Below, piece after piece: positions 3,930 through 30,120 of a DNA stretch of 30,143 bases. The DNA lies in IMG/VR virus record IMGVR_UViG_3300017781_000073, positions 1 to 30,143 of that record; one strand, 5' to 3'. Origin of the DNA: a virus. The translations under genes were made by a program, and so were the position numbers. The notes under the pieces are model-generated. The model ran no database searches, was not told the origin of the DNA, and was given only the letters and a program-made list of their open reading frames with translations. Position 1 is the first letter of the stretch. Each line of letters opens with the position of its first letter.

Positions 3930-4184
3930 TCAACGTAGTGCTTGCTTAGCCTTTAAAGCGGCTCTTTTCTTTTCAGTTTCAATTGCTTGTCTAACTTTTC
4001 GTCCCCAAGGTAGTTTTATTTTATCTACTATTTCTTTACCTTTTTTACTAATGTATTCTACACTAATAAATCGGTCCTTGAAGTCACCTTGTACAGATTT
4101 TACTGCTCTATGTAGACTCAATTGTTCTGTGTCTTTTTCATCACCCTTTTCATTCCAGAAATGGAACTTTCTCATTTTTGGCAT
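3930..4184 (-). CDS. Small basic protein, unknown function
   Basis: The 84-residue protein starts MPKMRKFHFWNEKGDEK and ends in a Lys/Ala-rich helix (KKRAALKAKQALR). The core 'RFISVEYISKKGKEIVDKIK' may be a short beta-alpha unit. GGAGG lies 4 bases before the ATG. The first 35 bases overlap the end of uvsE, so translation is probably coupled. No family is recognised. Its compact size and charge suggest binding to nucleic acid or another protein, which is inference only. Confidence 0.7.
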   Translation of the reverse strand: MPKMRKFHFWNEKGDEKDTEQLSLHRAVKSVQGDFKDRFISVEYISKKGKEIVDKIKLPWGRKVRQAIETEKKRAALKAKQALR

Positions 4185-5226
4185 AAGCCTCCGTTGTTAC
4201 ATATTTATTGTATTGATCTAGCAGTTCTATGCTTGCTAAATTCTTCATCTTGCTCTCACACATAATATCAGCATATTGTAAGAACGAAAGTGCCCATGCA
4301 TTTACTTTCTCGTTAGGGTAAAAGTCGCTATGGGCTCGTAATTTTGCTTTCTTGTAGCCTGCTTCGAGTAGTGCTGGCATATCAGGCATAGTATCATGTT
4401 TAAAGTCTGCAGGTAAATGTTCGTCTCTGCTGTAAGAGTAATGTATTACTGGACGTACACCACGCCATGAATCTATTACGCGAGAAAATCTATCGTCGGT
4501 GGGACGTATATACTCACCTTCACGGCACCAGTGATGGTGTATGTCGAGAACCAATGCGCAGGTGTCGACAAGTTCGAGACTGTGTTCGAGTCCCCACTTG
4601 TTCTCGTCGTTTTCGATCGTAATTGTGTTTCTCGCCTCCGGAGATAGTCTTGTGTCAACTGCGTGTTTAATACCGGCTGGACCTTGGCGACCGGATATGT
4701 GGACGTTGCATTTAAAGTCTTGGAACGATTGGCCATAGCCCATCCATCTGATGCAATCAACATGATATTCAAACTCCTCTATAGATCTTTCGACAATGTC
4801 TGGATTGTCGCTTGCAAGTACAGTAAATTGGCCTGGGTGCATCGAAAGTCGGACATCGAGGGCTCTTGCCGTGTCGCCGACTTTTGCGAATTCTCTTTCG
4901 CAGTAAATTCTAACATCTGGCTTACGCCAAAAATAAGACCAAGTAGGCTCGGTATACACAGGAAGTACATCACTACCCAGTCTGACCATTCTAAGTTCGT
5001 TTGGAAGACCTCCAACATATCTAATCAATCTCATGTATGACGCTATGTTATGGACCATGATGTCCCATAAGCGTTGCTCTGCTACCTCAACAGTTTGTCT
5101 ATTGAGCCATTGTACTGTTGTACTACGGGTATTTAGCGGTCGTTGAATTTCTTCTAGCAGTTTCTTCTTCTGCGTTTGATCTGCTGTCATATATTTACAA
5201 GCAAAGCCTATGCGTTTAGTTACCAT
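4150..5226 (-). CDS. uvsE: UV-damage endonuclease (UvdE/UvsE)
   Basis: The 358-residue protein is a full-length UVDE-family TIM-barrel enzyme. It carries the metal-site motifs in order: SMHPGQF (about 128-134), HISG (176-179), ENDE (205-208), DIHHHWC (228-234) and a late HSDF. Family members nick DNA 5' of UV photoproducts and other lesions and start an excision pathway. That suits a phage of sunlit water. The gene is visibly richer in G and C than its neighbours, with many CGA/TCG words between 4440 and 4980, which suggests separate acquisition. The start overlaps the end of a 50-residue ORF by 7 bases and has no good ribosome site of its own, so coupling is likely. Confidence 0.95.
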   Translation of the reverse strand: MVTKRIGFACKYMTADQTQKKKLLEEIQRPLNTRSTTVQWLNRQTVEVAEQRLWDIMVHNIASYMRLIRYVGGLPNELRMVRLGSDVLPVYTEPTWSYFWRKPDVRIYCEREFAKVGDTARALDVRLSMHPGQFTVLASDNPDIVERSIEEFEYHVDCIRWMGYGQSFQDFKCNVHISGRQGPAGIKHAVDTRLSPEARNTITIENDENKWGLEHSLELVDTCALVLDIHHHWCREGEYIRPTDDRFSRVIDSWRGVRPVIHYSYSRDEHLPADFKHDTMPDMPALLEAGYKKAKLRAHSDFYPNEKVNAWALSFLQYADIMCESKMKNLASIELLDQYNKYVTTEAYAKNEKVPFLE

Positions 5227-15434: not shown

Positions 15435-16499
15435 TTACTGATAAGGATCTAGATCAAGGTACTTACCCCATTCACTGTAGTAATGACGCATACCTACTTC
15501 ATCATGGATAGTTCCGTTCTCGTGTCTACCATGTAGTATGTTACGTGCTTCAGTGCCTTCACGCATTGTTGTTCCTTGTCCTGCTACACCAATTAGGTCT
15601 TCGTGTAGGTTACGTCCGAACGGTCCCCATATGCTGTTGTGATGGTTGATGCGTGTGCGTCTTTCTTCTGGTGTGTCTTTGCGTAGTCCATAACCTCTAA
15701 ACTCAATAAGAACTTTGTTAGGTCCTAATGGAGTTACTGAGTCACTTCTATATGCACTACCACGCAAGTTAAAGTTATAGCCTGGAAACAAGTCTACCAT
15801 GTACCATTGGTTGGGTGGTAGATTAGGAAAACTTAATTCTCCTCTATCCTCAAAGCCATCATACTCTTCATAGTTTACAGTAAATGAACTTACATTTACG
15901 TGTCCGTTATCAAACGGTATGTTCTTACGTGCAAAGTATTCATCGTTAAATCCACTTACTCTATTAAAGTAATGCATGAAGTCGTGATAGAACTCACTGT
16001 TCGTATCATGCCACAGTTTGTAGTTTGTATCTATTACTGCTTTATGATAATGGAACACTTCCATTTCTTCTGTATCAATAGCATCAGCAATACAATCAAA
16101 TGCACCTGCCGTCCATTGTTCTACAGTTTGCGTTGGATTTTTATTTAATGTAGTCCATACCATTCCGCCGTGTTTAACTTCTGTGTATAACGGAGTATAG
16201 TCATCCATTAAGAATTCTACTCTAGTCATTGTTCCTGAAGGTGTATTAAACTTACCTGTATTCAAATAAGATTTAATTGAATCTCCGTTATTAACTGCAA
16301 TAACATTTTGACCTGCAATTTGTGTTGTTCTAAAACTACCTGGCTCCGGCATTTCTGATTTGTGACACATAGGTACCCAAACCTTACTAAAGATTTGTTC
16401 TTGTTCTTGTGCAAATATCTCTTGGCTGTTGTAGGCTGTGCTACTAATTGATTCTACGTTTGGTTGTGCTAACCAATTCTTATGATTACGTGGTGGCAT
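15435..16499 (-). CDS. Rieske-type ring-hydroxylating-oxygenase-like protein without Rieske ligands
   Basis: The 354-residue protein follows the alpha-subunit layout of Rieske oxygenases: an N-terminal FSKVWVPMCHKSEMPEPGSF, then a catalytic domain with the mononuclear iron site YHDFMH (H172, H176) and a likely carboxylate in NLHEDLIG (D301). The Rieske cluster needs C-x-H and C-x2-H. Here the expected N-x-C-x-H place reads YLNTGKFNTPSG, the second pair is missing, and the whole protein has only two Cys (45 and 136). It thus appears to have lost the cluster but kept the iron site. AAGGAG precedes the ATG and a host-type promoter lies upstream. Substrate is unknown. Confidence 0.78.
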   Translation of the reverse strand: MPPRNHKNWLAQPNVESISSTAYNSQEIFAQEQEQIFSKVWVPMCHKSEMPEPGSFRTTQIAGQNVIAVNNGDSIKSYLNTGKFNTPSGTMTRVEFLMDDYTPLYTEVKHGGMVWTTLNKNPTQTVEQWTAGAFDCIADAIDTEEMEVFHYHKAVIDTNYKLWHDTNSEFYHDFMHYFNRVSGFNDEYFARKNIPFDNGHVNVSSFTVNYEEYDGFEDRGELSFPNLPPNQWYMVDLFPGYNFNLRGSAYRSDSVTPLGPNKVLIEFRGYGLRKDTPEERRTRINHHNSIWGPFGRNLHEDLIGVAGQGTTMREGTEARNILHGRHENGTIHDEVGMRHYYSEWGKYLDLDPYQ

Positions 16500-16581: not shown

Positions 16582-16682
16582 TGGCTCTGGGGGAAGGACT
16601 CGAACCTCCACGATAAATAATTTGCAGTATATCTATCATATGATTAACAGTCATACGTGTCTACCAATTTCACCACCCCAGA
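16582..16682 (-). tRNA. Aberrant tRNA with Asn anticodon GTT and long variable arm
   Basis: Acceptor TCTGGGG/CCCCAGA, three-pair D-stem GTG/CAC with D-loop AAATTGGTAGA, anticodon stem TATGA/TCATA with loop CTGTTAA (GTT), T-arm GGAGG-TTCGAGT-CCTTC, discriminator G73, encoded CCA. U1-A72, G73 and GUU agree with tRNA-Asn. However, the D-arm resembles tRNA-Leu and the variable region (16638-16610) is 29 bases and folds into an 8-pair stem with one G-U pair. Long variable arms belong to Leu, Ser and bacterial Tyr tRNAs, not Asn. It lies 8 bases after the synthetase-like gene and probably comes from the same transcript. Charging by host SerRS, or by the neighbour, are both open. Confidence 0.85.
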
Positions 16683-16690
16683 TTATATCC

Positions 16691-17521
16691 TTATATCTTG
16701 CCGATTTTTTCTAGTGCAGGAATCATACGTGTAATACCTATGCCTCCACCAACTCTTTGAAAGAAATCAAACTCTAAAAACTTTTCAAGTTCTGCCTCTA
16801 CTCTATCTTTGCCGAACAGTTCGAACAGTAGTTTTGAGTAAGCACCGTCTGTAATACTATGAAATGTATCACGCATCATATCAACATTGCAACTGCGTTC
16901 TGCTGATCCAATAGTTTCCATTCCACCTAAGATAACGTCCATCTTCTTTGCAGTATTTCCGTCATCGTTTCTAGCCATGTTCCAGAACGGTGAAGTCATT
17001 TCAGGAAAGTTAGTAATGATAGTTTGTCCAAATTCTTCTTCCATTGCAAGTTCGTGTTTCGCATCCATTTCAACATCTACAGGCAGATCAAAATGTGCTT
17101 GCCAGTCACCGTATGTTTTTTCTGTAAGTGTACCAAAGCCTAAGTATTCACATAGTTCATACTCCATTGCTTTTAGATCATCTACACTACCTGGCATTTC
17201 AAATTCAAACATTGGAAATATTATATCGTGTCTACCTGGTATTGCATTAGGCTCTTGTCTGTAGGAAGTGGAGACACAAAAAAACCCCTTACTATCGGGG
17301 CTACTTAATAATTCATGTTCTAGCCACATCTGGCCTGTTTGCGGTAAGGGCCATACCTGGCCTGCGTAATTGTATGTTGCTACATTGAATGGATCTTCAC
17401 ATGCGGCAAGTATGCTTAGTCTGTTTTGGGTATGGACTTCTAAGAATCCTTTATCCAAAAAAAATGACCTTAAAAGGCCAACTGTGTTTGTAAATTTACT
17501 TGGGTTTATTAGTTGCGTCAT
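16691..17521 (-). CDS. Class II aminoacyl-tRNA-synthetase-like catalytic core (AsnRS/AspRS type)
   Basis: The 276-residue protein keeps class II motif 2 (YRQE at 87-90, RHD at 97-99, FPMFEFE) and motif 3 (GGGIGITR, R265), plus KMDVILGGMETIGSAERS, which parallels the AsnRS segment ending in GGSQRE. The N-terminal OB-fold anticodon-binding domain of AsnRS, AspRS and LysRS is missing: motif 1-like sequence starts within 30 residues. Relatives of this shape include archaeal truncated AsnRS-like asparagine synthetases and bacterial AsnA, which make free asparagine. It could therefore make asparagine, charge the tRNA next to it, or modify an RNA. AAAGGA lies upstream of the ATG, and a terminator-like hairpin at 17552-17582 separates it from the zinc-ribbon gene. 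Confidence 0.8.
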   Translation of the reverse strand: MTQLINPSKFTNTVGLLRSFFLDKGFLEVHTQNRLSILAACEDPFNVATYNYAGQVWPLPQTGQMWLEHELLSSPDSKGFFCVSTSYRQEPNAIPGRHDIIFPMFEFEMPGSVDDLKAMEYELCEYLGFGTLTEKTYGDWQAHFDLPVDVEMDAKHELAMEEEFGQTIITNFPEMTSPFWNMARNDDGNTAKKMDVILGGMETIGSAERSCNVDMMRDTFHSITDGAYSKLLFELFGKDRVEAELEKFLEFDFFQRVGGGIGITRMIPALEKIGKI

Positions 17522-20051: not shown

Positions 20052-20200
20052 TATTGCATGTCCTTGAGCATAATGTTCATTTGCTCAATTTGTGTTTCCA
20101 TTTTTTCAAGTCTGTTTTCAAGTTGATCTGTCGCTATAAATGTTAGAGCACCTGCAACAATTAACATTGAATAAAAAATTATACTAAAATATTTGTTCAT
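20051..20200 (-). CDS. 49-residue single-span coiled-coil protein
   Basis: The ORF starts [20 protein letters not shown], a single membrane span, and ends in a heptad-like helix (LENRLEKMETQIEQMNIMLK). Its ATG overlaps the ClpP stop and its stop overlaps the next ATG, both as TAATG, so it fits exactly between two genes. The layout (short anchor plus coiled coil) resembles small spanin-like or regulatory membrane peptides, but this is inference. Confidence 0.7.
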   Translation of the reverse strand: MNKYFSIIFYSMLIVAGALTFIATDQLENRLEKMETQIEQMNIMLKDMQ

Positions 20201-20787
20201 TATCTTTTCTCCACAATAGTATCTGCTAGTCCGTATGCAACTGCTTCTTCAGCATTCATAAACTTATCACGATCCATGTCACGTTCAAAATCTTCATAAG
20301 TTTTTCCGGCTGTGTTGTGCTTAACATACAACTTTGTTAAATTTTCTTTTAGATATTGAATCTCTTTGAAACGAATTTCAATATCACTTGCCATACCCTG
20401 AGCACCACCGCTTGGTTGATGAATCATTGTACGGGCATTGGGTAACAACTTACGTTGTCCTGGTTCGCCTGCTTGTGCAAGGAAAGATCCCATTGAACAT
20501 GCTTGGCCCATCACCATTGTGTGAACAGGTGATTTAATAAATTGCATTGTATCGTAAATACTCATGCCTGAAGTAATTACACCGCCTGGTGAGTTAATAT
20601 AAAAATTAATTGGCTTTTCAGGATTTTGTGATTCTAAAAATAACAACTGTGCAACGACTACGTTAGCACTAGCATCATCAACTTGACCATTTAACATTAC
20701 AATACGATCTTTAAGAAGTCTACTGTAAATATCCCATGAACGTTCGCCTCTTGACTCTTGTTCAACTACCATAGGAATTAACGGCAT
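20200..20787 (-). CDS. clpP: ClpP-type serine protease
   Basis: The 195-residue protein matches full ClpP length after processing. The catalytic triad is complete: S98 in [10 protein letters not shown]123 in MIHQPSGG and D174 in DMDRDKF, with the oxyanion segment NSPGG at 65-69. ClpP forms a double heptamer that degrades proteins fed by a ClpX or ClpA unfoldase. No unfoldase gene is seen, so a host partner is implied. It lies in an operon of coupled small genes. A second, distant ClpP-like protein is encoded at 23009-23572. Confidence 0.93.
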
Positions 20788-21205: not shown

Positions 21206-21420
21206 TTTACTCCTAATAGTTTTAAATTTAAAACAAAGTTCTCTACCATTAGTTTAACACATATTGCCTTTAATGTCAAGTGATTTTTGTCCAATTCAGC
21301 AACATGCATAGCCATAAGATTAAACGCTTCATCTTCTGATATATTCAGTTGACCCCAATCAATAGGGTCAACTGTATCTGCTTCTAGTGCAAGTTCTTTT
21401 AGTATCTTCCAATCATCCAA
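21202..21420 (-). CDS. Small helical phage protein
   Basis: The 72-residue protein starts MDDWKILKELALEADTVDPI and is mostly acidic and helical, with no membrane span. It overlaps the phosphoesterase end by 8 bases and the next start by 4. No family is recognised. The 21251-21279 promoter is embedded in its coding sequence. Confidence 0.65.
   Translation of the reverse strand: MDDWKILKELALEADTVDPIDWGQLNISEDEAFNLMAMHVAELDKNHLTLKAICVKLMVENFVLNLKLLGVK
21251..21279 (-). promoter_or_regulatory. Internal host-type promoter for the ClpP operon
   Basis: TTGACA (21279-21274), 17 bases, TAAACT (21256-21251). Confidence 0.6.
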
Positions 21421-21928
21421 CGTTTATTTCCTCTACGTCTAATGGTGTGAAGTTAATTTGCTCAACACTAACACACTTGTATGGACCTGGAGGACAAGCA
21501 TTAGTATGAATGTGTCCATGGACGTTTAAGATACCATCTTTGAATCTGTGTGACTCATTAAGAGTTTGCTCATGCATCGGAGCATGACTTAAAACCATTC
21601 CTGGTAATTCAGTCCATAACTTGATGCTTTTGAAAAACGGAGCAAGAAACTTTGGGTTATCGTGGTTACCTAATATTAAATGTTTCTTACCAGGCAACTT
21701 TGCAAAGTTTGCTTCTAACCAGTCAACTTTGTTTTCACCAAACAATACATCACCTAAGTGAATAATAGTATCTTCAGGCTTCACAACACTTACCCAGTTG
21801 TCCATCATACACTCGTTCATTTGCTCTACAGAGTCAAAGTTCCTTACAGGCTTACCAATGTAATCCTTGAATGAAAGTATAAGTTCGTGGTTAAAGTGAG
21901 TATCACTAATTACGAATGTTTTAGGCAT
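21413..21928 (-). CDS. Calcineurin-like metallophosphoesterase
   Basis: The 171-residue protein carries the five signature blocks: SDTHF near the start, HLGDV, LGNHD, SHAP and HGHIH. The fold binds two metal ions and cleaves phosphomono- or phosphodiesters. Short relatives in bacteria (YfcE type) and phages act on nucleotides or cyclic nucleotides. A cyclase is encoded at the other end of the window, so a role in cyclic-nucleotide turnover is possible but not shown. A host-type promoter lies 34 bases upstream. Confidence 0.9.
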   Translation of the reverse strand: MPKTFVISDTHFNHELILSFKDYIGKPVRNFDSVEQMNECMMDNWVSVVKPEDTIIHLGDVLFGENKVDWLEANFAKLPGKKHLILGNHDNPKFLAPFFKSIKLWTELPGMVLSHAPMHEQTLNESHRFKDGILNVHGHIHTNACPPGPYKCVSVEQINFTPLDVEEINVG

Positions 21929-23008: not shown

Positions 23009-23572
23009 CTATAAGATGTCGTCTGCTACACCTAGGTCAACCAATTGCTTGGCTGTGTAGTATTGATCTGAAGGATTTTTAATAAACTTGTTACGCACTT
23101 CTTGTACAGTCATGCCTGTTGCTTCTTTTAAAATTTGCAAACATCTTGCTTCACAGTTTTGATTCTCTTTCATTTGTGCTCTTATGTCATGCATCTTAGC
23201 ATCTAAGTTATCACTATGCTGATGATTCATAACACCTGTATTCTTACCTATGAAACGATAACCTTGTGAACCACTTGCAAATATTAAAAAGCCTGCACTC
23301 ATAATAGAACCTATGCCAACTGTGCTAATATGATGATAACTTGTTTTCATTATATCTATTAATGCAAACATCTCGTATAAGTCGCCGCCTGGTGTATTAA
23401 GATATAGTTCTAGTACACGTTTAGGTTTTTTTACAAGGTTAGCACTAATGATCCATTTAATTGCTTCGCTTACATTTTCATTTGTAAGTTCACCATGAAG
23501 ATAGTGAATATCATTGTCCAGTAAACTTCTGTCTACTGCATCTACACTAGTCCAACTTTCATATTTAGGCAT
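23009..23572 (-). CDS. Second ClpP-like serine protease
   Basis: The 187-residue protein keeps the crotonase/ClpP fold pattern: NTPGGDLYE (59-67), GSIMSAGFL with likely nucleophile S92, MNHQHS with H117, and NPSDQYYTA with D169. It diverges strongly from the ClpP at 20200-20787. It may form mixed rings with that ClpP, act alone as a virion-assembly or regulatory protease, or be an inactive partner. The start has AATAAAT just upstream and no ribosome site. Confidence 0.82.
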   Translation of the reverse strand: MPKYESWTSVDAVDRSLLDNDIHYLHGELTNENVSEAIKWIISANLVKKPKRVLELYLNTPGGDLYEMFALIDIMKTSYHHISTVGIGSIMSAGFLIFASGSQGYRFIGKNTGVMNHQHSDNLDAKMHDIRAQMKENQNCEARCLQILKEATGMTVQEVRNKFIKNPSDQYYTAKQLVDLGVADDIL

Positions 23573-24543: not shown

Positions 24544-25110
24544 TTACCTCCATTGCGGTCCTCTTACCCAGCCTACTAAACTGTGTCGCATACCTTTAGT
24601 TACAGGTCTTACTCTGTGCCATGTATAACTAGGAAATAAAAGAACATCGCCTTTCTTAATTTTTAATGTGTGTACACGAGGTTCAGCAACAGGAGAGCCA
24701 CACTCTATTTCAAACTCGCCGCCTTCATAATCTTCAGATAGTAAAATACTAAAACTAATTTTTCTAATGGTTTCTTCTAATTCGCCAATGAAATGATCTA
24801 CATGCCAATCATACTTTTGTTCTTTCTCACCATCATACTGTGTAAACTGTAGAGGTTCAATTACTTGATGTTCAAATCCCCACTGGGCTTGTTCATTGGC
24901 TGAGTGTACTATGTCAAAAATATGTTGAAAGAGTGGTTCTGATTTTTCATTTGCGTCAATCCAACTTACATCACTGTGTCTTTTATTCTTTGGATCTTTT
25001 TCTGCTGACTTTGCTTTTTCTACTTCTGGTGCCAAGTCGTAAACCATGTCTATCCATTTTTGTTCAAATGGTTGTTCGTTAAAATGGATAAAAGCCTGTT
25101 GTCGTAACAT
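24544..25110 (-). CDS. 2OG-Fe(II) oxygenase (prolyl-hydroxylase/PiuC-like)
   Basis: The 188-residue protein has a full double-stranded beta-helix signature: YDWHVDHF with H103 and D105, SILLSEDYEGGEFEI, FPSYTWHRVRPVTKG with H165, and RHSLVGW with the 2OG-binding R175. This is the P4H-like class, close to PiuC/YbiX. Members hydroxylate proteins, nucleic acids or small molecules using Fe(II), oxygen and 2-oxoglutarate. It overlaps the upstream small gene by TAATG. Confidence 0.88.
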   Translation of the reverse strand: MLRQQAFIHFNEQPFEQKWIDMVYDLAPEVEKAKSAEKDPKNKRHSDVSWIDANEKSEPLFQHIFDIVHSANEQAQWGFEHQVIEPLQFTQYDGEKEQKYDWHVDHFIGELEETIRKISFSILLSEDYEGGEFEIECGSPVAEPRVHTLKIKKGDVLLFPSYTWHRVRPVTKGMRHSLVGWVRGPQWR

Positions 25111-25314: not shown

Positions 25315-25863
25315 TTAAAACTCCATATCTGCCGCTACAATGTAACGATTTTGTTCTGATTGTAATATACCAGGACGGTGCCAGCACTTACCTGGATATA
25401 TCATCCAGTGTCCTGTTTTCCAAGTTGTTATCATTTGTCCATCTTTGTCTATACCATTTGGTGCAAGTTCGGTACCTGCTGTTTCGTAACTATTAACATC
25501 ATCAGGTAAATGTAAATAATACACTCCGCTGATTGTTTTAGTTTGTGGATTATGATTGTGATGATGCCAAAGTTTATCTCTATCTTCTCCAGGCAAGCAT
25601 GTTTGAAATGCCCACGACTGTACTTGCTTGATACTTACTTCCATTTTTAAATAAGAAAAGCAAGACCATATAAAACTCATTTTAAGATTTACAAAGTCTT
25701 GTGTAGGAGTACCAAAAACATTCCAATCGGTTTGATACTTAGGACTGTTCTTCCAATAGCGTCCTGCTTCAATGCCTGTGTTAATTTCAAGCATCATTCG
25801 TTCACGAGAACTTTGATCAATTAATGCTGACCAATCATAGTATTCGTGAACGTTAAAACTCAT
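25315..25863 (-). CDS. 2OG-Fe(II) oxygenase-like protein
   Basis: The 182-residue protein has HHHNHNPQTKTISGVYYLHL, HWMIYPGKCWHRPG and NRYIVAADMEF, the pattern of a distal His with an Arg four to five strands from the iron site in phage oxygenase-like families. It resembles the tandem pair at 5369-6575 more than its neighbour at 24544. The assignment of the first iron ligands is uncertain because there is a run of His. It overlaps the peroxiredoxin stop by TAATG. Confidence 0.7.
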   Translation of the reverse strand: MSFNVHEYYDWSALIDQSSRERMMLEINTGIEAGRYWKNSPKYQTDWNVFGTPTQDFVNLKMSFIWSCFSYLKMEVSIKQVQSWAFQTCLPGEDRDKLWHHHNHNPQTKTISGVYYLHLPDDVNSYETAGTELAPNGIDKDGQMITTWKTGHWMIYPGKCWHRPGILQSEQNRYIVAADMEF

Positions 25864-26408
25864 TAAGAGATTCCTAAATACTTACAACAGTTCTCTGGAG
25901 TTGATTCAATATAAGGATCATCATCTTCGCCATCATTATTAATTCCCGGTTCTTGCCACCATTTCTCAACAACGCCATCGTTGATAATAGCCATGTATCT
26001 CCATGAACGCATTCCAAAACCTAAATGATTTTTACCGATAAGCATACCCATAAATCTTGTAAAGTTTCCAGAACCATCTGGAATAAATTTTACATTCTTA
26101 ATGCTTTGCTGATTTGCCCAAGCATTCATAACAAAGGCATCATTAACACTCATACAATATATGTCGTCAATATCTTTGTTACAAATCTTAGTATAATTTT
26201 CTTCAAAGCCTGGAAGTTGTTGTGAAGAACAAGTTGGTGTAAATGCTCCTGGGAGACTAAACAATACTACCCTCTTACCTTTAAAGTAATCATCTGTAGT
26301 CTTATTAATCCATTCTCCGCCGATAGAACATCCTTCTACTCCGTCAACTTCTTCATCGCCTTCTCGTGTTCTAAAAGTTACATAAGGTACCCTAAAACCT
26401 TCAATCAT
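25863..26408 (-). CDS. Peroxiredoxin (Prx5-like)
   Basis: The 181-residue protein (start MIEGFRVPYVTFRTREGDEE) has the peroxiredoxin active site PGAFTPTC with peroxidatic C60, plus GFEENYTKI and VNDAFVMNAWANQQ, typical of the Prx5/AHP E-type group. It reduces hydrogen and alkyl peroxides. The longer frame start at 26450 was rejected because the promoter lies in it, and AAAGGAG sits 8 bases before the ATG at 26408. Confidence 0.92.
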   Translation of the reverse strand: MIEGFRVPYVTFRTREGDEEVDGVEGCSIGGEWINKTTDDYFKGKRVVLFSLPGAFTPTCSSQQLPGFEENYTKICNKDIDDIYCMSVNDAFVMNAWANQQSIKNVKFIPDGSGNFTRFMGMLIGKNHLGFGMRSWRYMAIINDGVVEKWWQEPGINNDGEDDDPYIESTPENCCKYLGIS

Positions 26409-26424
26409 AAATTTTTCTCCTTTA

Positions 26425-26448
26425 ATACGATTATATACGATTATATAC
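26425..26448. repeat. Tandem 10-base repeats at the peroxiredoxin promoter
   Basis: TACGATTATA occurs twice, followed by TACAAT. About 22 bases match the array at 22971-23000. Confidence 0.7.
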
Positions 26449-26458
26449 AATTAGTCAA
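26430..26458 (-). promoter_or_regulatory. Host-type promoter for peroxiredoxin
   Basis: TTGACT (26458-26453), 17 bases, TATAAT (26435-26430). Confidence 0.8.
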
Positions 26459-26872: not shown

Positions 26873-27151
26873 ATGGACTTTTTAGGATTAGTTAGTGATG
26901 TAGGATTTCCGATCGCAGGGGCGATAGCATCGGGTATCTTTGTATTCACTACTTTAAAGTTTATACTAAGCGGAGTTACTGGATCCGTAAAAAGTCTTAA
27001 GGGCATTATAATGGGACTTGATAATCGTGTTCAAACTATGAACAACGACCTAGTTAAAATAGATACACTTATGAGTTATGCTTTGAGTGTAAAGCCTAAT
27101 GTAGACAGAATTGCCGCAAACGAAGGTAAGGATGATGCACGTCGTGATTAA
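26873..27151 (+). CDS. Small membrane protein, paralogue of 27386-27715
   Basis: The 92-residue protein starts MDFLGLVSDVGFPIAGAIAS, one membrane span, then a helix with DNRVQTMNNDLVKIDTLMSY. GGAGG lies 7 bases before the ATG, so a TTG start at 26846 is not needed. The same layout (GFPIxxA, span, then RxxxMxxD) recurs in the gene at 27386. Possible roles are membrane anchoring or lysis control; none is shown. Confidence 0.75.
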   Translation: MDFLGLVSDVGFPIAGAIASGIFVFTTLKFILSGVTGSVKSLKGIIMGLDNRVQTMNNDLVKIDTLMSYALSVKPNVDRIAANEGKDDARRD

Positions 27152-27162
27152 GGAGAAAAACA

Positions 27163-27408
27163 ATGATGTGGGTAGACTATACAGTAGATCAAGCAGGAGA
27201 GAATTTTACCGTTAGAGGTGATTGGCCCGGAGAAGTAATGGGTCTAATGAAAGACGGTTCTAAAAAAGAAAATTTTTTATATAAGCCAGGTGATGTTTTC
27301 GTAGTAAATGATAGTGGTTGGCTAATTAAAACAAACGAACTTGCCGTGTTTATGGCAAAATACGAAGAAAGTAAAAAGAACAAGAATGGATCTAGCAACA
27401 GCGATTAG
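27163..27408 (+). CDS. Small soluble protein, unknown function
   Basis: The 81-residue protein starts MMWVDYTVDQAGENFTVRGD and is probably a beta-rich domain (SKKENFLYKPGDVFVVNDSG). AAGGAG lies 6 bases before the ATG. It lies between two paralogous membrane-protein genes in one transcript and overlaps the second by 23 bases. Confidence 0.7.
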   Translation: MMWVDYTVDQAGENFTVRGDWPGEVMGLMKDGSKKENFLYKPGDVFVVNDSGWLIKTNELAVFMAKYEESKKNKNGSSNSD

Positions 27409-27715
27409 TGAGTACGGATTTCCCATCATAGCGGCAATGGGTCTCGGCTATTTTGTCTACTATGTTTGGAAATGGGTAACTACTGAAATCGATCCTGTCT
27501 TAAACGATGCAAGCAAAACATTAATTGGTTTGATTGATCGTATTCGTATGTTAGATAATGATATGATACGTCTAACACAGAAGTTAAATATGGTATTAGA
27601 GTTTAAAGAACAGTATGAAAAAATGACTGGGAAAAAACTTGATTTAGATCTTGACACTATAGAGAGAGTGAAAAAGGAAATTCAAGATGTCAAAGTCACT
27701 AAGCGACGAAAATGA
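27386..27715 (+). CDS. Small membrane protein, paralogue of 26873-27151
   Basis: The start at 27386 (MDLATAISEYGFPIIAAMGL) is preferred to 27341 by similarity to the first gene. The 109-residue protein has one span, then a coiled-coil-like helix (LIDRIRMLDNDMIRLTQKLN and KKLDLDLDTIERVKKEIQ). It shares GFPI, RI/RV and an asparagine-aspartate pair with its paralogue, consistent with a duplication. Confidence 0.72.
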   Translation: MDLATAISEYGFPIIAAMGLGYFVYYVWKWVTTEIDPVLNDASKTLIGLIDRIRMLDNDMIRLTQKLNMVLEFKEQYEKMTGKKLDLDLDTIERVKKEIQDVKVTKRRK

Positions 27716-27818
27716 ATGTGAAACGTGTGGCCACAAGTGCCATAGAGACAAAGACTGTCCAGAGTGTGCTAACGATGTATGCTTCAGATGTAAGTGCAAA
27801 GATTGTGTAACTGATTAG
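27687..27818 (+). CDS. 43-residue Cys-rich zinc-finger-like protein
   Basis: This short ORF starts MSKSLSDENECETCGHKCHR and has nine Cys and two His, including CETC, CPEC and CFRCKCKDC. AAGGAA lies 7 bases before the ATG. It overlaps the previous gene by 29 bases in another frame and meets the minus-strand gene tail to tail. The metal-binding pattern and ribosome site make a real gene likely. No family is recognised. Confidence 0.62.
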   Translation: MSKSLSDENECETCGHKCHRDKDCPECANDVCFRCKCKDCVTD

Positions 27819-28072
27819 TCTACTGGCTTGTAAAAATCTTTATCACGTTTTCCTAATAACTTTTCTCTTATTAATTCTATTTCAGTTTTAGGCTTTTCGA
27901 TAATTTGTTGCTTAGGTATATCGAAACTAGGTTCTTTTTTATTTCCAACACGATTTTCATGTGCTAATTGTGCATCTGCAATTCTACGTTTCAAACTATC
28001 TACACGATGTTCTAGTTGTAAACAGTACTCTTCCATTTCCCAATTTATTTGTTTTTTAAACCAACCAAACAT
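27815..28072 (-). CDS. Small coiled-coil protein coupled to the cyclase gene
   Basis: The start at 28072 (MFGWFKKQINWEMEEYCLQL) overlaps the cyclase stop (TAATG), so the longer frame to 28105 was rejected. The 85-residue protein has a heptad-like helix (LEHRVDSLKRRIADAQLAHE) and a second helix (IELIREKLLGKR). It is cotranslated with the cyclase and may bind it or its membrane partner, which is inference from context only. Confidence 0.7.
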   Translation of the reverse strand: MFGWFKKQINWEMEEYCLQLEHRVDSLKRRIADAQLAHENRVGNKKEPSFDIPKQQIIEKPKTEIELIREKLLGKRDKDFYKPVD

Positions 28073-30120
28073 TATTTTGTTGTGGCGATGAATACGCCAT
28101 TCCAATCTTTAGGTAAATCTTGTGTTTTCATATACTCACACCTTTCAATCCACATTTTATAGTAACCTTCCATTTTTCCATCAAAGTGTCTCATTAGTTT
28201 TTCACAAATCCATATTGCTTCATCAAACTTTTGTGCTTGATATGCTTCGTGCATATCTTGATGCTGACGTTGTGCTGTGCGCCATGCAGGACGTCTTTGA
28301 TCCAACACTGTCCATATCCCAATGCCGACTGTTTTACCTTTAACTGCTAGGTCATCTATTTTCAAGTAGAAGAAGTCTGACTTTGTACGTTGATATGTCG
28401 CATCTCCAATAAGAAGTACACATCCGTATTCCTTACATTTGCTTTCAATACGAGCGGCTGTACTGACTGAGTCTCCAAGGACATCGTAACTGTGTCTTTG
28501 TGTACTACCCATTTCGCCCAGATAACCAAGACCAGTATTAATGCCAGCCCCCATCCCAACGGGTGGCCTGCCTTCGCTAGTAATTTTTTCATTAAATATC
28601 TCCACTGCTTTTAGCATATCTAATCCACACTGCACTGCTGTACGAGGATGATCGGGATCATCAATAGGTGCATTGTGTACATGCATACTTGCATCGCCAA
28701 TATATTTAATGACCATGCCGTCTGCATCTAGTATAGGTTGCGTAATTGCATCCATATAGCCATTCATAATTTTTGTTAGGCCTTTTACATCATCGCCAAA
28801 TGATTCACCTAATGGTGTAAAGCCTCTAAGGTCTGAAAAACAAATTGAAACTTCTTTTTTCATTCCTTCTTTTATAAGTGCAGGATTTTCTTGTAACATA
28901 CGCACTACTGTTGGACTTGCGTAACCTGCAAACTGTTTTTTAATTTCTTGCTTTTGAAAGTATTCACTTACAAAGCGATTAAACACTGCATGTAAACCTA
29001 CAATCAGAACCGTAAGGACCGGAAAAGTGACATCCAGCAAATAAAGGTGGTTTTGCCAAGCGTATAATGCACTGTAAGCAAGGCCTCCGGAAAACAGAAC
29101 AATAGCACCACCAACTATGTAGTAGGGCGTAAAACGTGCTAACAAGACTAAAAGAAAACCTATAACTGCTGTTGTTAGTAGTTCTGCTAACAACGCCCAA
29201 TAAGGTCTTTGTATTTGATCTCCGTCAATTACTGTTTGTAGGGTTACTGCCGCAGGAATATAGTTAAATTGAGGCCCTGTTGGGCTTGCAATCATGCCTC
29301 CTATTCCTTCTGCCTGTGCTCCTATAATAACTGTCCGGCCAGTGACCATACTTAAATCATCACTGGCCGCACTAATAGTTTCAAATTGCTTGTTCCAACG
29401 CAACCAAATCTGTCCGTTTGGATCAGTTTTAATAATAGGATAGCCTGGTACTCGTATTGCTTCAATGCCGCCACCTGCTTCTTTAACTTGATAACTTGGT
29501 GCGCCAGTTGAAACACGAATTACTTCTACTGCTAAAGCAGGATACGTATCATCCTGGATACGCATAATGAGAGGAACACGGCGTATAACGCCATCAATCT
29601 CAGGTGATGTGTTTATAACCCCAACACCGTCTGCATTGTCTCCTAGCAGTGGTATAGGTCCCAACATTCCCGGCCATTCAAACATATATGGCAGTGGGTC
29701 TCCTATCTTCGCAATACCTCGCGGGACCGAGTTGCGATTGACTTGGGTAGTTCCTGCTTGTGCAATTACTACTCCGTTGCCCGCAAGTGCTTGAGCCAAG
29801 TCCATGTCGCCGCCTAACCTATCGACCTCTGACATTAGAATTGGGAGTACTATAATACCCGCACCTGCTTCTCGAAGTTTCCAGATTATATCTGCCAGTA
29901 CTTCTCGCTTCCAAGGCCATTGCCCATACTTTTCAATGGCTGTTTCATCGATAGCGACTACTACAATATCTTGGGACACTTGTGGTTGATCAGTGGTTTG
30001 TAGTATATCGAATTGCTTCAACCGGAGCGTTTGGACAATGGTGCTATCACCATAATGTATGCTGATCATAACTATAGCCGTGATAAAGGCTACTGCCCAA
30101 TGGGTGATATACTTGCTCAT
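28072..30120 (-). CDS. CHASE2-domain class III adenylate cyclase
   Basis: The 682-residue protein has one N-terminal span (about 8-22), a CHASE2 sensor outside the membrane (about 45-300, with VVVAIDETAIEKYGQWPWKR and VGVINTSPEIDGVIRRVP), three spans (about 309-380), a linker and a class III cyclase domain (425-605). In the domain both metal Asp are kept (D430 in FSDLRGFT, D476 in YIGDA), as are the purine Lys K472, Asp D546 and transition-state Arg R557. The usual Asn in GDxVN is Ser (S553). A helical tail (610-660) resembles that of bacterial CHASE2 cyclases. It would make cAMP in the host membrane. The region is richer in G and C than most of the window. No ribosome site is seen; GATAAATA ends 4 bases before the ATG. 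Confidence 0.9.
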   Translation of the reverse strand: MSKYITHWAVAFITAIVMISIHYGDSTIVQTLRLKQFDILQTTDQPQVSQDIVVVAIDETAIEKYGQWPWKREVLADIIWKLREAGAGIIVLPILMSEVDRLGGDMDLAQALAGNGVVIAQAGTTQVNRNSVPRGIAKIGDPLPYMFEWPGMLGPIPLLGDNADGVGVINTSPEIDGVIRRVPLIMRIQDDTYPALAVEVIRVSTGAPSYQVKEAGGGIEAIRVPGYPIIKTDPNGQIWLRWNKQFETISAASDDLSMVTGRTVIIGAQAEGIGGMIASPTGPQFNYIPAAVTLQTVIDGDQIQRPYWALLAELLTTAVIGFLLVLLARFTPYYIVGGAIVLFSGGLAYSALYAWQNHLYLLDVTFPVLTVLIVGLHAVFNRFVSEYFQKQEIKKQFAGYASPTVVRMLQENPALIKEGMKKEVSICFSDLRGFTPLGESFGDDVKGLTKIMNGYMDAITQPILDADGMVIKYIGDASMHVHNAPIDDPDHPRTAVQCGLDMLKAVEIFNEKITSEGRPPVGMGAGINTGLGYLGEMGSTQRHSYDVLGDSVSTAARIESKCKEYGCVLLIGDATYQRTKSDFFYLKIDDLAVKGKTVGIGIWTVLDQRRPAWRTAQRQHQDMHEAYQAQKFDEAIWICEKLMRHFDGKMEGYYKMWIERCEYMKTQDLPKDWNGVFIATTK

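Follow-up and report, generated by a model that had tools for sequence, protein, structure and literature searches.

A phage-borne CHASE2 class III cyclase that may act with FecR to report on curli export

The closest described relative of the locus reported here is the type VIII secretion module of pelagiphages, in which curli genes, a FecR gene and an adenylate cyclase gene occur together in both Myo- and Podoviridae (Wittmers et al. 2022, PMC9599517). That study gave the module an alphaproteobacterial origin and took FecR to be an iron-related regulator, and its main text contains the term CHASE2 nowhere (PMC9599517). The curli pore of such phages was also discussed by Zaragoza-Solas (2020, PMC7029224), without the cyclase or FecR, and by Buchholz (2022, PMC9004378), where the CsgGF pore was proposed as a lysis regulator and neither the cyclase nor FecR was considered. 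Thus, both the module and the presence of the cyclase in phages were already known. In bacteria, the biofilm-linked BiofilmReg operon of Burkholderia contaminans places a periplasmic FecR/LysM protein beside a CHASE2 sensor, but with a histidine kinase rather than a cyclase as the output (PMC5192318). As for the catalytic domain, the class III adenylyl cyclase Ma1120 of Mycobacterium avium combines a Lys/Asp substrate pair and the usual Arg with Ala in place of the transition-state Asn; it is active, and introducing Asn lowers its activity (PMC4215837). Another active class III cyclase lacking the usual transition-state Asn is XC_0250.

The cyclase described here lies at the end of a 30143-base viral contig, IMG/VR record IMGVR_UViG_3300017781_000073, the whole of which was analysed and is referred to as the window. 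The gene (28072..30120, minus strand) runs from an ATG at 30120 to a stop codon at 28072-28074 and encodes 682 amino acids with no internal stop. Its predicted periplasmic sensor is a CHASE2 domain (residues 16-323, 29152..30075, minus strand; Pfam PF05226, E=1.9e-39), and its C-terminal part contains a class III catalytic domain (residues 421-597, 28330..28860, minus strand; PF00211, Guanylate_cyc, E=5.2e-16), which also matches PDB entry 6fht by sequence (8e-24). The AlphaFold model places a predicted helix at residues 7-24 (30049..30102, minus strand) and three further ones at 309-330, 333-358 and 365-397, which together with the linker span residues 309-397 (28930..29196, minus strand); this arrangement fits four membrane spans, one before the sensor and three after it. 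CHASE2 thus sits between one N-terminal and three further predicted membrane helices, as in other receptors of this layout, and Pfam and the model bear out the original prediction of a CHASE2 sensor, four spans and a cyclase. Mean pLDDT of the model is 80.6, with about 84-95 in the CHASE2 block and values <50 in the active-site stretches 417-433 and 539-548, where confidence is low. Searched against the PDB with Foldseek, the model finds class III cyclases as its best matches. A full-length match to phrog_35576 (E=1.4e-198) is annotated as being of unknown function. The catalytic domain is also hit by the Pycsar cyclase profiles of PADLOC (best E=2.8e-15), a similarity that any class III cyclase should show.

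Only 23 bp separate the cyclase ATG from the end of the contig, and the window itself carries no curli or FecR genes; the original prediction therefore missed the module of which this gene forms the end. It had proposed a search of phage databases for CHASE2-cyclase fusions, and a viral scan of IMG/VR found at least 417 related stretches, 80 of which were kept for comparison. Two isolates also carry the gene, Melnitz, which infects OM43 (66% identical), and the Pelagibacter phage HTVC008M (45% identical), so that its description as a phage-borne CHASE2 cyclase stands. In both isolates the order is csgF, csgG, a curlin-repeat gene, a FecR gene, a second gene annotated as curlin or hypothetical, and then the cyclase; genes and order are those of the published pelagiphage module, whose 'AC' is the HTVC008M-type cyclase, as far as the module is described in PMC9599517. 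Among viral loci with >7 kb of upstream sequence, csgF, csgG and FecR adjoin the cyclase in all 54, on the same strand in 53 (the exception being L025), and Pfam confirms CsgF, CsgG, Curlin_rpt and FecR domains in the module proteins. In L025 and L027 the curli/FecR genes lie opposite and divergent to the cyclase, unlike in the other loci covering this region. A chimeric contig with a bacterial gene at its end is ruled out by neighbours shared with independent contigs and isolate genomes; one contig, L005, has 10 of the 24 genes of the window that were compared. Nor does the gene look like a late arrival, as its base composition had been taken to suggest: its GC3 of 0.31 resembles that of other window genes, a mild GC excess recurs in 56 of 57 relatives, and silent sites are near saturation, all of which speaks against recent acquisition.

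On the other side of the cyclase, the window encodes two small membrane proteins with coiled coils, of 92 amino acids (26873..27151, plus strand) and 109 amino acids (27386..27715, plus strand), which are paralogues, both in PHROG 18771, the longer with a weak holin-like match. Between them lies a gene for an 81-amino-acid protein (27163..27408, plus strand), a relative of Melnitz gene 105, which adjoins the cyclase there. All 47 loci in which both flanks are present keep the two paralogues by the module, either ahead of csgF or behind the cyclase, and Wittmers et al. may have described them as short 'HK' genes. A small gene for a coiled-coil protein (85 aa; 27815..28072, minus strand) shares one base with the stop codon of the cyclase (TAATG) and had been put forward as its partner; it is not conserved, a relative occurring only in L037 among 82 viral loci. 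The phosphoesterase at 21413-21928, cast as an opponent of the cyclase, shows no specific link to it: relatives of the phosphoesterase occur in 1592 phage records, the cyclase in 9.

The closest bacterial counterparts were sought in a genome scan that yielded 80 loci, five of which (L084-L088) were set aside as phage-like contigs; about 62 of the remainder encode class III cyclases with CHASE2. A FecR-domain gene is found no more than about 400 bp away from the cyclase in 26 of these about 62 loci, as in Hyphomonadaceae (L107) and Salaquimonas (L100), where a cyclase of the same layout stands beside FecR. FecR with a CHASE2 cyclase is thus a common bacterial pair, newly recognised here; neither this pairing nor the catalytic residues appear to be discussed in PMC9599517. 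The L100 FecR protein is adhesin-like, with Ig-like, cadherin-like and VWA domains, and the Burkholderia biofilm operon likewise has FecR and CHASE2 together (PMC5192318). The bacterial pairs differ from the phage locus in that no csgG or csgF was found in the about 62 loci, using phage-built profiles that could miss distant bacterial CsgG/F. Taken together, the bacterial pairing supports FecR as a candidate sensor partner of CHASE2 rather than an iron regulator. Distances between FecR and CHASE2 lend this weak support, since they correlate (Spearman 0.61, or 0.39 with CsgG controlled, and 0.09 between the catalytic domain and FecR), a correlation that shared ancestry could explain. The five excluded contigs were assigned to Pirellulales, Rhodobacteraceae and Flavobacteriaceae assemblies. 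Their cyclases are of phage type, and module genes are present in every one except L087, which breaks off at the cyclase; because most of them carry the phage module, they are probably phage contigs misbinned into bacterial assemblies.

Most catalytic residues of class III cyclases are retained, and the numbering of all those named in the original prediction is right. The metal-binding Asp430 (28831..28833, minus strand) is Asp in 81 of 81 viral sequences, and the stretch from Lys472, the base-specifying residue, to Asp476, the second metal-binding Asp (28693..28707, minus strand), is invariant in 80 of 80; both metal ligands of the class are thus invariant. At the other base-specifying position, Asp546 (28483..28485, minus strand) is Asp in 78 of 80 viral sequences, so that Lys472 and Asp546 make up a pair of the ATP-specifying kind (Lys plus Asp, Thr or Ser). 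The transition-state pair is incomplete: Arg557 (28450..28452, minus strand) is Arg in 80 of 80, but an AGT codon (28462..28464, minus strand) puts Ser553 in the place of Asn, and Ser stands here in 78 of 80 viral sequences. Since active members of the class lack this Asn, its loss is not counted against class III membership, which the homologous catalytic domain supports by PF00211 and by sequence and fold matches in the PDB. All aligned bacterial relatives have Ser or Thr at position 546 and Asn at 553, giving D-K-D-(S/T)-N-R in all ~62 versus D-K-D-D-S-R in the window type; close to the active site, the alignment has SMHVHNAP in the window type versus IMAFWNAP. Canonical Asn does occur in some phage proteins, those of HTVC008M, L060, L064, L086 and L087.

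In a typical class III cyclase, replacing this Asn with Ser is expected to lower activity. Several patterns nevertheless point to constraint on the phage type. Most Ser-type relatives have catalytic domains 75-96% identical, even where CHASE2 is only 34-38% identical, in which case the catalytic domains still reach 83-89%. Median dN/dS is about 0.06 in the catalytic domain and 0.09 in CHASE2, and in distant relatives synonymous sites are saturated (pS 0.78-0.89 versus pN 0.11-0.125). A dead remnant would hardly stay so conserved while silent sites saturate, and chance decay through loss of Asn is ruled out by Ser in 78 of 80 sequences and by purifying selection. In the catalytic-domain tree the Ser type forms one group with a long stem (2.42) and short inner branches. 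By CHASE2, Asn-type phages are instead scattered within the Ser-type ones, and a tree that unites the Asn types in one clade is rejected (AU p=0.0003). Catalytic domains have thus been exchanged among phages, with Ser-type and Asn-type domains taking each other's place in one and the same context. The Asp546/Ser553 combination is specific to the phage clade, fixed and under strong purifying selection. Because it is fixed, constrained and exchanged with canonical domains, Ser553 probably marks a working but altered active site, for which Ma1120 is the precedent.

A cyclic-nucleotide signal would require a reader, and the standard one is scarce. The cyclic-nucleotide-binding domain PF00027 was found in none of 15 module-bearing phage records, two complete genomes among them; neither a phage-encoded CRP-like receptor nor a nearby effector of the Pycsar kind was thus found in those records. 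SAR11 is the likely host group; a DNA ligase search made to trace the host of the window returned distant phages only. SAR11 genomes were found with the 16S probe SAR11-732R, in the sequence that we take to be that of the probe; two genomes matched, and the family of one of them, 117 genomes, was used. Among these 117 genomes, whose completeness is not reported, PF00027 occurs in 5 and is absent from 112; of 386 Alphaproteobacteria sampled, by comparison, 294 have it. Class III cyclases scoring above the cut-off occur in 2 of the 117. The absence of a CRP-type receptor domain from 112 of 117 genomes of the likely host group also weighs against an effect on catabolite control, which the original prediction had suggested, and the literature searched yielded no cAMP receptor from SAR11. 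Thus, the best-known hosts seem to have no standard cyclic-nucleotide receptor protein, and the signal is one for which no reader is known. Published work leaves both the altered active site and this missing receiver unexplained.

We regard the protein as a FecR-coupled adenylate cyclase that reports on phage-made curli export, a reading to which we give a probability of roughly 0.58. The infecting phage would make a curli-type (type VIII) pore of CsgG and CsgF, curlin-repeat proteins and a secreted FecR-domain protein. CHASE2 in the periplasm would read the state of FecR, presumably by contact, and through FecR the export or assembly of curlin, and would relay what it reads across the membrane to the class III cyclase domain, a homodimer in the cytoplasm. 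There, Lys472 and Asp546 would select ATP, Asp430 and Asp476 would bind the metals and Arg557 would stabilise the transition state, with cAMP as the most likely product; any step after the nucleotide is conjecture. The cyclase would then provide the output of a surface-export module that the phage brings with it. The catalytic domain might instead be kept for dimerising or nucleotide binding and make no second messenger, the work being done by FecR/CHASE2 contacts and the pore. Ser in place of the transition-state Asn across the clade with its long stem, the further odd residues near the active site, and a receptor domain found in no phage record and rare in SAR11 would all fit such a receptor. 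It is nonetheless unlikely, given metal-binding Asp, Lys and Arg residues invariant in about 80 sequences (Asp546 nearly so), strong purifying selection, canonical catalytic domains that can substitute, and the activity of Ma1120 without Asn (PMC4215837).

Suppose that the domain is active but makes cGMP, cCMP or cUMP, or that its cAMP counters a nucleotide-based defence, Pycsar-like or other, as a decoy or competitor. We consider either improbable: the Pycsar profile matches and the altered active site could be read in this way, but Lys472/Asp546 is an ATP-type pair, as in Ma1120 (PMC4215837), and the pyrimidine-specifying residues of PycC are lacking, with Lys472 where the cytidylate cyclase EaPycC has Arg142, as judged by spacing from the second metal-binding Asp (PMC11224242). 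An anti-defence gene would hardly show such strict curli/FecR linkage, SAR11 mostly has no CNBD effectors, and nothing in the analysis points to a role in nucleotide-based defence, which the original prediction had raised. Still less probable is a role in lysis timing, in which the cyclase would report the state of the envelope and act together with the curli pore and the two small holin-like proteins. This would extend the lysis-regulator proposal for CsgGF made in the Melnitz paper (PMC9004378), and the two paralogous small membrane proteins beside the module would suit it; but the holin PHROG match of one of them is marginal (E=0.009), the curlin and FecR genes would go unexplained, and the bacterial FecR/CHASE2 pair, which can accompany secreted adhesins, has no known link to lysis. 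Returning to the FecR-coupled reporter of export, this reading recasts FecR and the cyclase as a FecR/CHASE2 sensing pair and would have them report on export at the envelope instead of serving iron regulation, in a module widespread among the phages of streamlined marine bacteria. It also raises a question, namely what reads the signal of a conserved, altered cyclase in hosts seemingly without a cAMP receptor, or whether the signal is something else. A tentative answer, which we hold as possible but doubtful, is that the phage-specific Asp546/Ser553 cyclase does signal in hosts without the standard receptor domain and that a phage or host protein without a CNBD reads it, within a phage-encoded system for envelope sensing and curli export.

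The rest of the window holds further genes of interest. A tRNA at 16585-16682 (minus strand) was found by Rfam (54 bits) and missed by ARAGORN, and it is directly adjoined by a short gene resembling class II (D, K, N) aminoacyl-tRNA synthetases (16691-17521, minus strand). Two different ClpP-type proteases are encoded in this one phage contig, at 20200-20787 and 23009-23572 (minus strand). Other minus-strand genes encode a UvdE-type UV endonuclease (4150-5226), a protein similar to the alpha subunit of Rieske-type ring-hydroxylating oxygenases (15435-16499), a 2OG-Fe(II) oxygenase (24544-25110) and a redoxin-like protein (25863-26450).
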